Source of the DNA: Streptomyces sp. A2-16
GTDB taxonomy: Bacteria; Actinomycetota; Actinomycetes; Streptomycetales; Streptomycetaceae
Direction: 5' to 3'
NCBI RefSeq assembly: GCF_018128905.1
Contig: NZ_CP063808.1
Span: 4,526,001 to 4,590,000 of the forward strand
DNA: 64,000 bases
Shown one piece after another: positions 5,407 to 14,571 of the stretch (position 1 is its first letter; each line of letters opens with the position of its first letter). Both the position numbers and the translations under genes were made by a program. Below the pieces are notes generated by a model that was given only the letters and a program-made list of their open reading frames with translations, was not told the DNA's origin and ran no database searches.

Positions 5407-5517
5407 ACCCGCCGCCCCGCACAAGGGGCAGCCCGCTCCGGCTGGAATTCGTCTCGTTCCCCGCAGCGGGCGTCCTGGACGAGTCATTCGAATGTTGACG
5501 GTGTGTCCGGGTACGGA

Positions 5518-5567
5518 GACAGGGCGTCCAAGATCGCTATGTGACGAACAACCTTGGACGCCCTGTC
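5518..5567 (+). repeat. 15-bp inverted repeat around the IS982-type transposase start
   Basis: GACAGGGCGTCCAAG (5518-5532) and its perfect complement (5553-5567) flank a 20-base loop that contains the GTG start at 5541. The right arm is part of the transposase coding sequence (CTTGGACGCCCTG). The hairpin would enclose the start codon, which could dampen transposase translation. The left arm could equally be an insertion end. Confidence 0.6.
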
Positions 5568-6340
5568 GACCGCACCGTAGGTGAAGATCGACGACGAGAT
5601 CGGGGCCACCCGATGGCTTGGCCGACCGCCGCAGTTGACGGATTCCGAGCTGGTCACCCTTGCCGACGCGCAGGCTCTGCTGGCCTCACCTCGGAGCCGC
5701 GCTCGCTGCGGTTCGTGGACTCCCGGCTGGGACCGATGTTCCCGTACGTGCCCAGGCAGCCGGGCTGGAACAAGTGGCTGCCGGCGGCGTTGCCGCCGGT
5801 CAAGAAGGCAATACGGTTGTTGGCCGTCGAGACGGACTTCTGGTTCGACAACCCCAGGATCGTCGACTCCACGCCGGTGGAGTACGGCCACTCGCGTCCG
5901 ACGGTGAAGCGGTCGGACATGGTCGGCTGGGCCGGATACGGGTACTGCGCCTCGCGCTCCGGGTTCTTCTGGGGGCTGCGCCTGTTCCTGGTCTGCACCC
6001 CGACCAGGATGTCCGTCCTGTGGGCGCTGGCGAACCCGAGGACGGACGAGCGGGAGGTGCGGTCCGCGATGCTGGACCGCGAACCGCACCTGGCCGCCGC
6101 ACCGGCCGGGCCTGCCGGTGATCGCGGGCAAGGGCTGCGCCTCCAAGGAGTTCGAGGCCGATCTGGCCTTCCGGGACGCGGCGTTGCTGCGGCCGTCGTT
6201 CAAGCGCGAGAAGAAGCGCAAGGGCGAGAGCCTCCTGAAGTCGGTGCGGCAACTGATCGAGTTGGTCAACGACACTGCCTCGGGCGACGCGGACGGCGAC
6301 ACCCTCGAAGGTCTGCCCACCGTGCGCAGCCAGCCGTTAC
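5541..6340 (+). pseudogene. IS982-family transposase, frameshifted
   Basis: Reading through three frames recovers an IS982 transposase. GTG 5541 gives VTNNL. A second frame gives VKIDDEIGATRW and LTDSELVTLADAQALL. The first frame then resumes with LRFVDSRLGPMFPYVPRQ, DSTPVEYGHSRPTVKRSD and GWAGYGYCASRSGFFWGL. Near 6118 the frame changes again to VIAGKGCASKEFEADL and LKSVRQLIELVNDT. At least three indels (near 5580, 5690 and 6100) break it, so no active enzyme can be made. It abuts the 3' end of the minus-strand membrane/nucleosidase operon. Confidence 0.8.
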
Positions 6341-7142: not shown

Positions 7143-8036
7143 TCAGAAGTAGGGGAGCAGGCAGCTGAGGACGTGGGCGGCGTTTCGTGCGGCGAGTTCG
7201 TGGTGGCCGTGGCCCTTGTGTTCGTCTGCGTTGTCGGATACGCCGCGGATGACGATCCAGCCGGGGTTGGTTGTGCCGTGGACCGAGTTCTCTTGCCAGT
7301 ACTGGCTGAGGCCTCCGGCTTCCATGTCTACGGCGAGGACTTTTTCGTGGTAGTTGGTCAGGTAGGTGCGGATGTCGCTGGCCCGGTCGGCGATGACGGC
7401 TTCGCCTGACCCGATGACTCCGGGGTAGACCTCGTACTGCTCGCCGGCGTGTGCGGTCATCTGGCCGTTGATGCGTGCCGGTGTCCCGTACTCGGTGAAG
7501 TAGGCGTTCACGGCATGCACGATGTGCGCCGGCGCTTGGCGGTGTTCACCGCGGCGGCGGGTGTCCTGAGGATTGATCTTTCGGTTCTCGTAGTAGACGA
7601 CATCGGTGGAGACGATGACGTTGCCGATTCGGGCGTGGTCGTCGTGGAGACCTCCGGCGATGCCCACGAGGGCCCACAGCCGGGGGTTGTAATGGCGGCG
7701 GAGGTTCTCCAGGGCCGCCATCGTGGATCGCTGGCCCTGGCTCTGGGTCTGTGTGGCCACGATGCGCAACGTGGCGTCGGAGGAGATGTGTTCGCCCTGG
7801 TAGAAGTAGAGGCCGCTGGGTGTCTTGTGGCGGCGTAGTTTTAACTCGTCGATGACGGAGCGGAGTTCCTCACTGAGGATGGTGACGATGCCGAGGTCCC
7901 ACGGGATGTCTGCTTCGGTGGCGGGCTCGGCCGAGGGCAGAGGGGCGGTCGCGGAGGCGTGGGCATGATCGCCGATGGCGATGGTGCTGAAGGTGTTGTT
8001 GTTGCCGCGGCTGATGATGCCTTTGTTGTTGGTCAT
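7143..8036 (-). CDS. nucleoside phosphorylase/MTA-SAH-nucleosidase family protein with N-terminal Gly/Asn motif
   Basis: Of 297 residues, about 46-297 form a PNP_UDP_1 domain. The family landmarks are VGIAGGL (124-130), GDVV-like IGNVIVST, IGSGEAVIAD (208-217), AVDMEAGGL with Glu239 (ribose-binding glutamate) and RGVSDNAD with Asp268 (the catalytic acid position). It should cleave or phosphorolyse an N-glycosidic bond of a purine-type nucleoside, in the cytoplasm. Before the domain lies a short low-complexity motif (GI..RGNNNTF....AIGDHA, about 6-25) that repeats the C-terminal motif of the upstream membrane protein. ATG 8036 overlaps the upstream stop (ATGA), so the two are coupled. The fused motif is unusual for a housekeeping nucleosidase and suggests recruitment into a signalling assembly. 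Confidence 0.85.
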   Translation of the reverse strand: MTNNKGIISRGNNNTFSTIAIGDHAHASATAPLPSAEPATEADIPWDLGIVTILSEELRSVIDELKLRRHKTPSGLYFYQGEHISSDATLRIVATQTQSQGQRSTMAALENLRRHYNPRLWALVGIAGGLHDDHARIGNVIVSTDVVYYENRKINPQDTRRRGEHRQAPAHIVHAVNAYFTEYGTPARINGQMTAHAGEQYEVYPGVIGSGEAVIADRASDIRTYLTNYHEKVLAVDMEAGGLSQYWQENSVHGTTNPGWIVIRGVSDNADEHKGHGHHELAARNAAHVLSCLLPYF

Positions 8037-9766
8037 GTGGCTGCTCCGTTGTCGGCCTGTGCGGGCTGGTTCGCGGAGACGTTGACCTGAGCTGCGTCTC
8101 CTACGGCATTGTTGGTGAAGCTGTTGTTGTCGCCGAAGTTGAAGATTCCGCTGTTGATGATCTTGAGGGCGCGGTCGTTGAAACCGGACGTATCGACGCC
8201 CCTGGCCTGGAGGAAGTCACTGGCGGCACTCAAGAGACGTTGCTCTATGGTTTTCAGGCGCCCGAGGATGTCGCTCTTCTCCAGTTGGACCTTGGTCCAG
8301 GTCTGGGATGACTCTTCCCGTATGCTCACGCGGCTGCCGATGAGGATGTTGCGGATGGGGGTCCTGGTGAGGTCCCGGGGCAGCACGGCGGCCTTGGCCA
8401 CCCTGTAGAGGTATCGCAAGACCCGCCATGAGTACTGGATGTCGGTGGGCAGCGCGCTCAGTTCGTTGAAGGCTGCCCAGAGGACCGCCGCAGCACCGTG
8501 GTGGCCGAACTCCTCACCCCGCTGGAACGAGCGCGGTGTGTGGGCGAGTACGCATGCTGCCGTGGACAGGCTCAGGGTGCGTCCCTGCAAGCTGACGTGC
8601 AGGAGGACGGTCGCGACGAATTCGGACCCGTCGGCGGGTGTGATGATCTCGAGGAAGTGGTGCTGCTTCGATTCCGGCGTGTCGATGATGGAGCGCAGTT
8701 CGCTGCGGGTGAAGTGGTGCGGAAGGAGAGACTGGTCGACGGCGACATCGGTCTCGGCGACGTAGACGCGGTCCCGGACTTCAGCAGGCAGCCGGACGTC
8801 GTGGCTGTCGGCGTTGAGCGGCAGAACGGCTTCGCGTAGGTATTCGACAAGTTCGTGTGCCTTGAAGGGCGGCACCGCGTGCTCACGCTCGTGCAGAGGT
8901 TCGTCGTCGGATTCGGCCCTCAGCAGTTGGATGCTCATCGGCGGGTTCCACTGGTAGACGAGCTCGCCGGCTCCGATGAAAGGCGATTCGTCACCGAAGA
9001 GCGTGAACATGGTGAGGTCGTCGTCCTCGTCGTCGCTGTGCCGGGTTCGGCGGTACACGGCGCACATGTGGTGCTGCTGACGGTCGGCTGCTCGCTGACG
9101 GCCGGACAGGCGGGAGGGGCGCAGGGCAGGTGTGCGCAGTATGCGGTTGAGGATCAGTTGGCGTGTGGCGCCCACGGCCAGGTAGACGAGTGTGAGCGCC
9201 GCGGCCAGCAGGAGCGCCGCCACTGCCTGTCGGGGATAGAGGAGGCCGATGGCCAGGATGGTCAGGGCCAGCCACAGTGCGGCCGTGGTGACGCGTTTGA
9301 CTACACGTGCTTTGGGCGTGGTGACGCGTGGGAGGAGGAACCTGAGGAGATGGCGATGAGCCCGTAAGGGATCCGGGACACGGCGTCGGGACCTGCCGGC
9401 CGCCATCGACTGGCTGTCGACGCCTCGCAGCAGTACGGCCAGACGCAGCAGCAACAGGAGTCCGAAACCGCTGGCGATCAGAAGGGCCGCGGGGACGCTT
9501 CCGTTGAGCAGGGGAGCGGCTATCGCGGCGATGACCGTGGTCCGGGCGAGGGCCCTGAGTGCAGCGGCACGCCATGCGTGCTGCATGACGGGGACGATGT
9601 CGAAGCCGTAGGACGGGGCGACCCTGCGGTGCGGCGCGGTGCAGACCTCGTCGATCACAAGGTCACGGAAGCGTTCGTCCACGTACACGCCGGCACACAG
9701 ATGACGGGTGGCGGCCGTGGGTTCGAGCGTTGTCTCCTGTGCTGGTAGCGCGTCGGACGTGGTCAT
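8033..9766 (-). CDS. four-TM protein with large soluble domain and C-terminal Gly/Asn motif
   Basis: This 577-residue protein belongs to no family I can name. It has an N-terminal soluble segment of about 70 residues and two helical hairpins of membrane spans at about 76-115 and 160-200. A basic linker leads to a large soluble domain at about 240-500 (FTLFGDESPFIGAGELVYQW, then LLHVSLQGRTLSLS). A short coiled-coil-like helix (LGRLKTIEQRLLSAASDF) precedes the end. Residues 537-566 form GIFNFGDNNSFTNNAVGDAA, matching the nucleosidase N-terminus. It is first in a coupled operon and divergent from an NrtR-type regulator across a shared palindrome. A sensor or receptor role is inferred from this layout. 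Confidence 0.75.
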   Translation of the reverse strand: MTTSDALPAQETTLEPTAATRHLCAGVYVDERFRDLVIDEVCTAPHRRVAPSYGFDIVPVMQHAWRAAALRALARTTVIAAIAAPLLNGSVPAALLIASGFGLLLLLRLAVLLRGVDSQSMAAGRSRRRVPDPLRAHRHLLRFLLPRVTTPKARVVKRVTTAALWLALTILAIGLLYPRQAVAALLLAAALTLVYLAVGATRQLILNRILRTPALRPSRLSGRQRAADRQQHHMCAVYRRTRHSDDEDDDLTMFTLFGDESPFIGAGELVYQWNPPMSIQLLRAESDDEPLHEREHAVPPFKAHELVEYLREAVLPLNADSHDVRLPAEVRDRVYVAETDVAVDQSLLPHHFTRSELRSIIDTPESKQHHFLEIITPADGSEFVATVLLHVSLQGRTLSLSTAACVLAHTPRSFQRGEEFGHHGAAAVLWAAFNELSALPTDIQYSWRVLRYLYRVAKAAVLPRDLTRTPIRNILIGSRVSIREESSQTWTKVQLEKSDILGRLKTIEQRLLSAASDFLQARGVDTSGFNDRALKIINSGIFNFGDNNSFTNNAVGDAAQVNVSANQPAQADNGAAT

Positions 9767-11785: not shown

Positions 11786-11863
11786 AGCAGAAAATGCTCC
11801 TGACCTGCAACGATGGGACTTGTCTAGGGTCCTGTGGGCTGCACGGAAAGAAGTACTCTCCCG

Positions 11864-13240
11864 GTGAAGAAGCGTATCGGGTCATACCCGCGTGTCCGCA
11901 TCGAGGGCGGCGGCCGGACGGTGGTCTCGCAGGCCGGGGGCGTGCTGCTGGTCGAGACCGTACGCAAGGCCGGCCTGGACACCGCGATATCAGCGACGCT
12001 GACGCCGTGGCGGAAGCCTCGTGCCGTGCACGATCCGGGCAAGATCCTGCTGGACGTGGCCCTGGCGGTCGCGCTGGGCGGGGACTGCCTCGCGGATGTC
12101 GCCATGCTGCGGGCCGAGCCGGCCGTGTTCGGGCCGGTGGCCTCCGACCCGACGGTCTCCCGGCTCATCGACACCCTCGCGGCCTCCGGGAAGAGCGCCC
12201 TGCGGGCCATCCGTTCCGCGCGGGCTGAAGTCCGCCGACATGTCTGGCGGTTGGCCGACCGGAAAGCGCCTGATGCGGGCGGGACGGTGACCGTGGACCT
12301 CGACGGGGTGCTGGTGGTGGCGCACTCGGAGAAGGAGGACCCCGCACCCACGTGGAAGCGAACCTACGGCCACCACCCGCTCATGGGGTTCGTCGACCAC
12401 GGACCGGGCGGCACGGGTGAACCGGTCGCGGCCCTGCTCAGAGCAGGCAACGCGGGATCGAACACGGCCGCTGACCACATCACCGTCGCCCAACCGGCCT
12501 TGGCCCAGCTGCCGAAGAAGTACCGGAGCGGGCGCCGGACGCCGATCCGAACCGACTCCGCGGGCGGCACCCACGACTTCGTCGCCTGGCTCGCTCAGCG
12601 GGGACGGTGGCTGTCCTACTCGGTCGGCATGGTGATCACCGAGCAGGTCCACCAGCATGTGCTGAAGGTTCCGGCATCGGCCTGGACTGCGGCCGTCGAG
12701 GCCGACGGCGAGATACGCGACGGCGCCTGGGTCGCCGAACTCACCGGCGACGTCCTGGACGGCTGGCCCAAGGGCATGCGGCTGATCGTCCGGAAGGAAC
12801 GGCCACACCCCGGGGCTCAGTTGCGGCTCACGGATGCGGACGGCATGCGGCTGACCTGCTTCGCCACCAACACCTTGGGCCGGCCGATCGCCGAGCTCGA
12901 ACTCCGGCAACGGCTACGGGCCCGCGCCGAGGACCGCATCCGCGCTGCCCGGGCCACCGGCCTGCGCAACCTGCCCCTGCACCGCACGGCCCAGAACCGG
13001 ATCTGGCTGGCGATCGTGCAGATCGCTCTCGACCCGCTGGCCTGGATGCCGATGCTCGCCCTGACCGGCACGGCCAGGCTCTGGGAGCCCCGCCGACTAC
13101 GGCTCCGCCTGCTCACCGCGGCCGGACAACTCGTGACCACCGGCCGCCGACGGATCCTCCGCCTTACCCGGCACTGGCCCTGGACCGGTCACATCACCGC
13201 AGCCTTCGACCGGCTCACCCAACTGCCCGGCCCTGGCTGA
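11864..13240 (+). CDS. IS1380-family transposase
   Basis: The 458-residue DDE transposase begins VKKRIGSYPRVRIEGGGRTV, the typical IS1380 N-terminus. GTG 11864 is preferred over the in-frame GTG 11834 because GGAAAGAAG lies about ten bases upstream of it. Acidic positions appear in TVDLDGVLVV, IRTDSAGGTH and the later ELELRQRL region. The frame is intact. Its left flank (about 11805) has the CCTGACCTGCAACGATG-like end expected of IS1380. I could not find the complementary right end, so the element may be one-ended. It sits inside an ISL3 remnant. Confidence 0.85.
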   Translation: MKKRIGSYPRVRIEGGGRTVVSQAGGVLLVETVRKAGLDTAISATLTPWRKPRAVHDPGKILLDVALAVALGGDCLADVAMLRAEPAVFGPVASDPTVSRLIDTLAASGKSALRAIRSARAEVRRHVWRLADRKAPDAGGTVTVDLDGVLVVAHSEKEDPAPTWKRTYGHHPLMGFVDHGPGGTGEPVAALLRAGNAGSNTAADHITVAQPALAQLPKKYRSGRRTPIRTDSAGGTHDFVAWLAQRGRWLSYSVGMVITEQVHQHVLKVPASAWTAAVEADGEIRDGAWVAELTGDVLDGWPKGMRLIVRKERPHPGAQLRLTDADGMRLTCFATNTLGRPIAELELRQRLRARAEDRIRAARATGLRNLPLHRTAQNRIWLAIVQIALDPLAWMPMLALTGTARLWEPRRLRLRLLTAAGQLVTTGRRRILRLTRHWPWTGHITAAFDRLTQLPGPG

Positions 13241-13685: not shown

Positions 13686-14571
13686 CTGGCTCTAACAAAA
13701 GCGAGTTGATCATGTGACTGTGTGCTTGATCGCTCGTTGATGTGGTCATGGGGAAGCGTCAGTCGCGGCCGTGGATCGTGTCGGACGAACTGTGGTCGCT
13801 CATCGAACCGTTGCTGCCCGAGCCACCGCCCAAGCAGGTCGAGGGACGGCCGCGAGTGCCCGACCGGCAGGCCTTGTGCGGCATCTTGTTCGTCCTGCAC
13901 ACCGGCATCCAGTGGGAGTACCTGCCCCAGGAGCTGGGCTTCGGCTCGGGCATGACCTGCTGGCGGCGCCTGGCGGCCTGGAACGAGGCCGGCGTGTGGG
14001 ACCAGCTACATCAGCTGCTGCTGAACAGGCTGCGGTCGAAGAACCAGCTGGACTGGTCCCGGGCGGTGATCGATTCCTCCCATGTCCGGGCCGCACGCAG
14101 GGGCCCAAAAGCGGACCCAGCCCGGTCGACCGCGCACGGCCGGGCAGCAAGCACCACGTCCTCACCGACGGCCAGGGCATCCCGCTCGCCGTGTCGCTGA
14201 CCGGCGGAAACCGCAACGACGTCACCCAACTGCTGCCCCTGCTGGACAAGATCCCGGCGGTGGCGGGAGTAGTGGGCCGGCCACGCAGGCGGCCCGACAT
14301 GCTCTTCGCGGACCGCGGCTACGACCACGACAAGTACCGCCGGCTCCTGCGTGAACGCGGCATCCGGCCCGCGATCGCCGAACGGGGCCAGCCTCACGGC
14401 ACCGGCCTGGGCACGTTCCGGTGGGTCGTCGAGCGCACCATCTCCTGGCTGCACGGCTTCCGCCGCCTGCGCATCCGCTGGGAACGGCGCGACGACATCC
14501 ACGAAGCTTTCCTCGGCCTCGCCGTCTGCCTGATCACCCACCGACACGTCCAGAGGCTTTGTTAGGGCCAG
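13686..14571 (+). mobile_element. IS5-family (IS427-group-like) insertion sequence, copy 1
   Basis: The 886-bp element runs from CTGGCTCTAACAAAAGC to GGCTTTGTTAGGGCCAG, near-perfect terminal inverted repeats. TTA flanks both sides (13683-13685, 14572-14574), a 3-bp TNA duplication. It encodes one transposase in two phases. It interrupts a GNAT gene. Copies 2 and 3 lie at 25328-26213 and 55643-56528 in the opposite orientation. Confidence 0.92.
13748..14565 (+). CDS. IS5-family transposase by programmed -1 frameshift (copy 1)
   Basis: The first phase (MGKRQSRPWIVSDELWSLIE onward) holds the DUF4096-like N-terminal region and the first catalytic Asp in VIDSSHVRA. At 14104-14110 the zero-frame heptamer C CCA AAA allows a -1 shift into the second phase. 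That phase holds HHVLTDGQGIPLAVSLTGGN, the second Asp in FADRGYD and the Glu in WVVERTISWLHG, ending at 14565. The fusion would be about 272 residues. Without slippage a 150-residue protein is made, the usual IS427-type control. Confidence 0.88.

Follow-up and report, generated by a model that had tools for sequence, protein, structure and literature searches.

Introduction

Bacterial amyloid signalosomes of the BASS type are NLR/Bell two-gene systems (Dyrka et al. 2020, as reviewed in PMC7889193), and in fungi the PNP_UDP-associated amyloid signalling motif (PUASM) forms fibrils and prion foci (PMC9815663). The EADs and EACC1 systems were described by Kaur et al. 2020 (PMC7159879). Previous work has further shown that general amyloid predictors fail to discriminate amyloid signalling motifs, whose composition (about 30 aa, Gly/Asn-rich, Leu-poor) resembles that of the tag reported here (PMC8086366). 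NLR-independent signalling amyloids were posed as an open question by a review of the field (PMC7889193).

The locus described here was found in Streptomyces sp. A2-16 (host genome, 9.8 Mb), in a stretch of 64,000 nt (GCF_018128905.1, NZ_CP063808.1, positions 4,526,001-4,590,000) that was analysed as a whole and is referred to as the window. By analogy with the systems above, it looks like a non-NLR, amyloid-type plug and socket that would switch on cell-suicide or defence enzymes.

A matching motif at the ends of two adjacent gene products

Based on the ORF calls, a three-gene operon on the minus strand of the window encodes a 4-TM protein (the putative receptor), a nucleosidase and a 221-aa TM protein (Table 1). 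An earlier note on this DNA had placed the first two genes across a four-base overlap, which was confirmed, and had claimed that the pattern GI...G[DN]NN[ST]F...A[VI]GD.A is common to the tail of the receptor and the head of the enzyme. The pattern fitted both termini without gaps, and both motifs lay where they had been placed (core residues 540-559 and 6-25, respectively), although the range given for the receptor, 537-566, was slightly wide and was narrowed to 537-561.

When the tail was aligned with the head, a score of 69 (BLOSUM62) was obtained, as against 22.9 +/- 4.1 (maximum 48) for shuffles of both segments, and none of the 5000 shuffles scored as high. The motif was also the top local alignment between the full-length 4-TM protein and the full-length nucleosidase, and only two G[DN][NH]N strings, those of the receptor tail and the enzyme head, were present in all six frames of the window. 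A profile of tails and heads, which was built with both window sequences included, detected just the two window sites genome-wide (E about 1e-12, with the next match at 9.6). With a tails-only profile made from the tails of other loci, the window receptor tail ranked first in the genome (E 8.7e-14); the second match, 122 bases away, was the nucleosidase head, with an E value (0.435) that is not significant alone, and the third was the head of the partner of another receptor.

In 38 related loci, from Streptomyces to Planotetraspora, the nucleosidase was likewise followed by the third gene of the operon, the product of which had no Pfam match. The nucleosidase-type locus was present in 6 of 121 Streptomyces genomes. 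Together with the transposase-like ORFs near the operon (putative, from ORFs alone; window 5484-6320, 11834-13240 and 13742-14565), this distribution fits a mobile, accessory locus.

Table 1. Coordinates of the operon and its features in the window
Feature	Position	Strand	Evidence
4-TM membrane protein, putative sensor, 577 aa	8033..9766	-	ORF list, AF2 model, hydropathy
Predicted alpha/beta domain of the 4-TM protein, residues 257-525	8192..8998	-	Structure model
Receptor C-terminal motif INSGIFNFGDNNSFTNNAVGDAAQV, residues 537-561	8084..8158	-	Pattern, profile, alignment
4-nt overlap of receptor stop and nucleosidase start codons	8033..8036	-	ORF list
Nucleosidase N-terminal matching motif NNKGIISRGNNNTFSTIAIGDHAHA, residues 3-27	7956..8030	-	Pattern, profile, alignment
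Nucleosidase, PNP_UDP_1 / MTA-SAH nucleosidase superfamily, putative effector, 297 aa	7143..8036	-	PF01048, PADLOC, PDB, alignment
Third operon gene, 221 aa, N-terminal TM segment	6415..7080	-	ORF list, hydropathy, neighbourhood comparison

The receptor family

In the AlphaFold2 model of the receptor (pLDDT 80.6, pTM 0.78), the N-terminal segment is helical and is followed by four long helices (57-87, 91-116, 152-176 and 178-211), then by an alpha/beta domain and, from residue 541, by a disordered tail, which is the motif (residues 541-577, pLDDT under 50). The alpha/beta domain weakly resembled Bet v 1/START helix-grip folds (VIA, best Z 7.8; many helix-grip entries at Z 6-7), and since the resemblance is only weak, the role of ligand-binding sensor that the model suggests for this domain is a guess. 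Foldseek gave no significant match for the receptor (best E 0.067), nothing was found when its sequence was compared with solved structures, and neither the window protein nor 46 relatives matched Pfam, NCBIfam or PADLOC. No description of the family was found in the literature searched, which was chiefly open-access and covered BASS through a review (PMC7889193); it is in this sense that the family is regarded as previously undescribed.

By profile search (E <= 1e-10), a family member was found in 148 of 150 Streptomyces genomes, and a profile search of genomes sampled across the phylum found one in 15 of 396. A strong homologue (E about 1e-40 or better) was counted by hand in about 87 of the 150, and many of the remaining genomes had a divergent paralogue only. 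The family extended to at least five further actinobacterial families, with relatives in Nocardiopsis, Planomonospora, Actinomadura, Herbidospora, Dactylosporangium, Phytohabitans and Kineosporia.

Inspection of 16 divergent paralogues with no matching gene behind them (L327-L342) showed that all 16 lacked the motif and had a conserved ...P.KAD.YDA-like C-terminus. This partnerless subfamily may be the sole family member in many Streptomyces genomes, and it might keep an ancestral function. At the locus L003 / L158 (genome G051), a stop codon was seen within the receptor match, with the nucleosidase frame intact alongside; this receptor is apparently a broken copy, or else an assembly error is responsible.

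Covariation of tails and heads

A total of 200 receptor loci were collected, and the downstream gene was called blind to the motifs, which yielded 186 pairs; from these, 63 non-redundant pairs were drawn for the covariation test. The receptor tails varied strongly by subfamily (STFAIGSHAHAES, NNSFV.GNNNTTNSGTQN, MSGGAVA.G, IIATGG..V.SSAVASG, NIGSV.GGQNQFG and GDNNQVNTG, among the texts found), and in nearly all of the 186 pairs the next gene opened with the tail text of its own receptor. The motif was about 25-30 aa in length, rich in Gly (18%) and Asn (10%, compared with 1.5% in the receptor body) and Leu-poor, and it was disordered in the models of the receptor and of a small partner (pLDDT under 50).

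Among the 63 non-redundant pairs, tails scored 69.2 against their own heads and 32.3 against those of shuffled partners (sd 1.3; maximum of 10000, 38.3), and control segments adjoining the motifs scored 23. The same held for the nucleosidase pairs alone (own 78.1, shuffled 54.5, sd 2.1), in which the head differs from Streptomyces to Nocardiopsis, Actinomadura and Dactylosporangium and the receptor tail differs in step. Homologous gene pairs were checked for absence of the motif, and the opposite was found, given that 57 of the 63 carried matched motifs (score >= 45), at the receptor C-terminus and the effector N-terminus as in the window. The proposal of the earlier note that receptor and effector are paired through matched terminal motifs is thus strongly supported, as homologous pairs covary pair by pair.

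Both termini are Gly/Asn-rich, and low-complexity segments of this kind might look alike by chance; yet the shuffles described above preserved composition, and the own partner ranked first of 63 in 40 cases and among the top three in 51. For pairs within the same genome, own scores exceeded cross scores in 49 of 50 comparisons (the exception, L205, being a tagless receptor), by which chance is refuted, and its probability is negligible. Three pairs coexist in the host genome of the window (the window pair, L099 and L181); as every pair has a motif text of its own, several could run side by side in one cell.

The likeness could also be a relic without function, left by a duplication that spanned the gene junction, with gene conversion keeping the copies alike. 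The two window motifs are no more than about 130 bp apart, and the same codon was used at identical residues slightly more often in own pairs (62.7%) than in mismatched pairs (54.4%), as this explanation would have it. The DNA of the window tail and head is nevertheless far from identical (51 of 75 nt the same, 24 different; 7 of 11 codons shared), the likeness is one of protein and is limited to the motif, with diverging flanks, and paralogues without a matching partner are also without the motif, which makes such a relic highly improbable. The likeness has been maintained at the protein level. A recent DNA duplication as the origin of the motif was rejected by the same codon comparison.

Alternatively, tail and head might never touch and instead be docking tags for a common third factor, either a chaperone or the product of the third gene, which is indeed conserved with the nucleosidase type. 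The third gene of the nucleosidase operon is type-specific, however, whereas tails match heads in all types, and a common factor would give no reason for each pair within one genome to have a text of its own; we regard this explanation as very improbable, if slightly less so than a relic. Homotypic coupling of tail and head is, judging from the sequences, very likely. That a specific, co-evolving, short, Gly/Asn-rich and predicted disordered tag is common to the membrane protein and the enzyme of the next gene can be taken as established at the sequence level.

Partner proteins

Enzymes of the PNP superfamily serve as immune effectors, for example the Detocs effector. By sequence signature, the partners in the 186 pairs were 47 nucleosidases, 10 TIR proteins and 127 small proteins (85-235 aa), with 2 left unmatched. 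The small proteins in this tally include L231, a locus of the nucleosidase type whose partner was called only in part. The window enzyme matched PF01048 (PNP_UDP_1; 54.9 bits, cut-off 25.1), the PADLOC model 'Effector, PN-superfamily' and, in the PDB, MTA/SAH nucleosidases (7e-20). Its residues E57, E239 and D268, which we take to be the equivalents of E12, E174 and D197 of E. coli MTAN, were invariant in an alignment of 28 sequences. The TIR partner matched CAP12-PCTIR_TIR (PF10137, 2e-27) and is of the CAP12/Pycsar type. With matches to PADLOC effector models among the partners, the nucleosidases and TIR proteins are, as far as their signatures tell, immune-type effectors.

The commonest partner was a small helical family of putative effectors, in which the predicted structure shows the disordered motif followed by four helices; Foldseek gave no significant match for the small helical partner. 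Some members are related to DUF5955. DUF5955 itself was rejected as the partner family, as the true DUF5955 (PF19380; L300, L295-L318) is a separate gene elsewhere and is only distantly related to the small helical partners; it was present in 24 of 25 Streptomyces genomes searched, and the motif was absent from those inspected. In several inspected loci, the DUF5955 gene adjoined genes for an IclR-type regulator and a MobA-like nucleotidyltransferase.

The small-helical loci had a third gene of their own: in L096, L099 and many others in Streptomyces, a different gene was seen behind the small partner, about 350-390 nt past the receptor stop. It encodes an N-terminal WNEETQRWE motif, a Pro-rich linker, a TM segment and an extracellular-looking domain, and the protein had no Pfam match.

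On the receptor tree, the nucleosidase and TIR partners each fell into essentially one clade, and frequent effector swapping is accordingly unsupported. A second copy of the motif was found in about 11 distinct partner loci; of the 13 second matches listed, L117 was dropped as a proline/glycine-rich match only, and L140 and L266 proved to be one locus fetched twice. Two copies of GG(I/V).IG.M(T/S)GGA(V/A)A.G were present in the partners of L131, L145, L148, L266, L276, L279, L280, L287 and L290, and one in the receptor.

Proposed mechanism and significance

We propose that the 4-TM protein would sense a cue through its N-terminal and its C-terminal alpha/beta domains, with no NLR involved. Upon activation or clustering of the receptor, the disordered C-terminal motif would fold, most likely into a beta-arch/cross-beta stack, and the folded tail would template or capture the matching motif, likewise disordered, at the N-terminus of the co-translated nucleosidase. 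This capture would concentrate and activate the enzyme, which may then cleave a purine nucleoside or nucleotide and so deplete the purine pool, and the cleavage would arrest or kill the infected or stressed cell. We infer cross-beta structure, the direction of signalling, the substrate and the role in defence.

The reading as an amyloid signalosome is favoured because the composition of the motif, the second copy that some effectors carry, the neighbouring position of the genes and the types of effector all match (PMC7889193, PMC8086366). It is also favoured by the fibrils and prion foci formed by PUASM, a motif that is likewise linked to PNP_UDP (PMC9815663). Given tail-head coupling, amyloid-like templating is, by this analogy, probable, and an anti-phage or suicide role of the sensor-effector pair appears reasonably likely. 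Taken as a whole, we lean modestly towards a non-NLR membrane sensor-effector signalosome in which a suicide effector would be recruited or activated by homotypic, probably amyloid-like templating.

The main rival is homotypic as well and would account for the sequence data equally well: tail and head may fold together, either as a small beta-solenoid or as two paired beta-arches, and the constitutive, stoichiometric complex so formed at the membrane would do no more than anchor or inhibit the enzyme. The covariation suits any specific contact between tail and head, Gly/Asn-rich repeats are also found in solenoids, and the overlapping genes have receptor and enzyme co-translated. The motifs, however, are short, disordered in the models and doubled in some partners, which brings them nearer to HET-s and BASS than to a fixed interface, and a likeness on both sides is expected for cross-beta stacking but unneeded for a hetero-interface. 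A non-amyloid clamp of this kind is considered unlikely, if far from negligible.

Whether Streptomyces and relatives hold widespread NLR-independent amyloid signalosomes, with the 4-TM family templating diverse suicide effectors through dozens of insulated private motifs, is to us an evenly balanced matter; if so, single cells would run several orthogonal prion-like channels. The family is a concrete, testable candidate for NLR-independent signalling amyloids, with 186 natural matched pairs. Paralogues without the tag or a matching partner are strong internal controls, and the nucleosidase and the NADase-type TIR offer enzymatic read-outs. The tagged receptor-partner pairs are thus of high interest, being common, testable and internally controlled, and their library of pair-specific motifs would provide orthogonal self-assembling tags and help in learning how amyloid specificity is encoded.

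Comparison with known systems

As in EAD/EACC1 systems, a copy on a core component is matched by a copy on the effector of the next gene, the match is pair-specific, and such systems are enriched in multicellular bacteria. EADs, however, are small domains with an alpha-helical or alpha+beta fold and belong to VMAP, GAP1 and similar systems, whereas the motif here is a disordered stretch of about 25-30 residues in a 4-TM protein; the single TM helix and the caspase partner of EACC1 also set it apart from the receptor described here. The window enzyme resembles MTA/SAH nucleosidases and the immune effectors of the PNP superfamily in its fold, its invariant catalytic residues and its match to the PADLOC PN-superfamily effector model, but it differs from both in the added N-terminal motif and its tie to a membrane protein.

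The earlier note had called the arrangement BASS/RHIM-like, which stands as an analogy. With BASS the family has in common a short motif (20-40 aa) carried by two proteins whose genes adjoin or overlap, a large number of motif texts, occurrence in actinobacteria and TIR effectors. As membership, the claim did not hold. The receptor crosses the membrane several times and has no NTPase domain (no Pfam match to NB-ARC, NACHT or STAND NTPases in the window protein and 46 relatives), the motif is at the receptor C-end and the effector N-end, whereas BASS has it at the receptor N-terminus and the effector C-terminus, and nucleosidase and small helical effectors are found here. The motif had no match in Pfam to a known amyloid-motif family. 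With two defining features of BASS failing, NLR and termini, the window system is, by its sequence features, not a member. In HET-s and some BASS effectors the motif is reported to be doubled, and the one-versus-two relation of fungal HET-s systems is seen here in some pairs, with one copy on the receptor and two on the partner.

PUASM differs in being fungal, in having an NLR partner and in its position at the C-end of the enzyme (PMC9815663). Its pattern, FxGxGxQxxGxGxF, was on inspection found in neither window motif, the core of which contains no Gln. In both systems, however, a Gly-rich motif on a PNP_UDP_1 enzyme is matched on a receptor encoded by the adjacent gene (PMC9815663), and PUASM may be regarded as the closest validated analogue of the locus described here.
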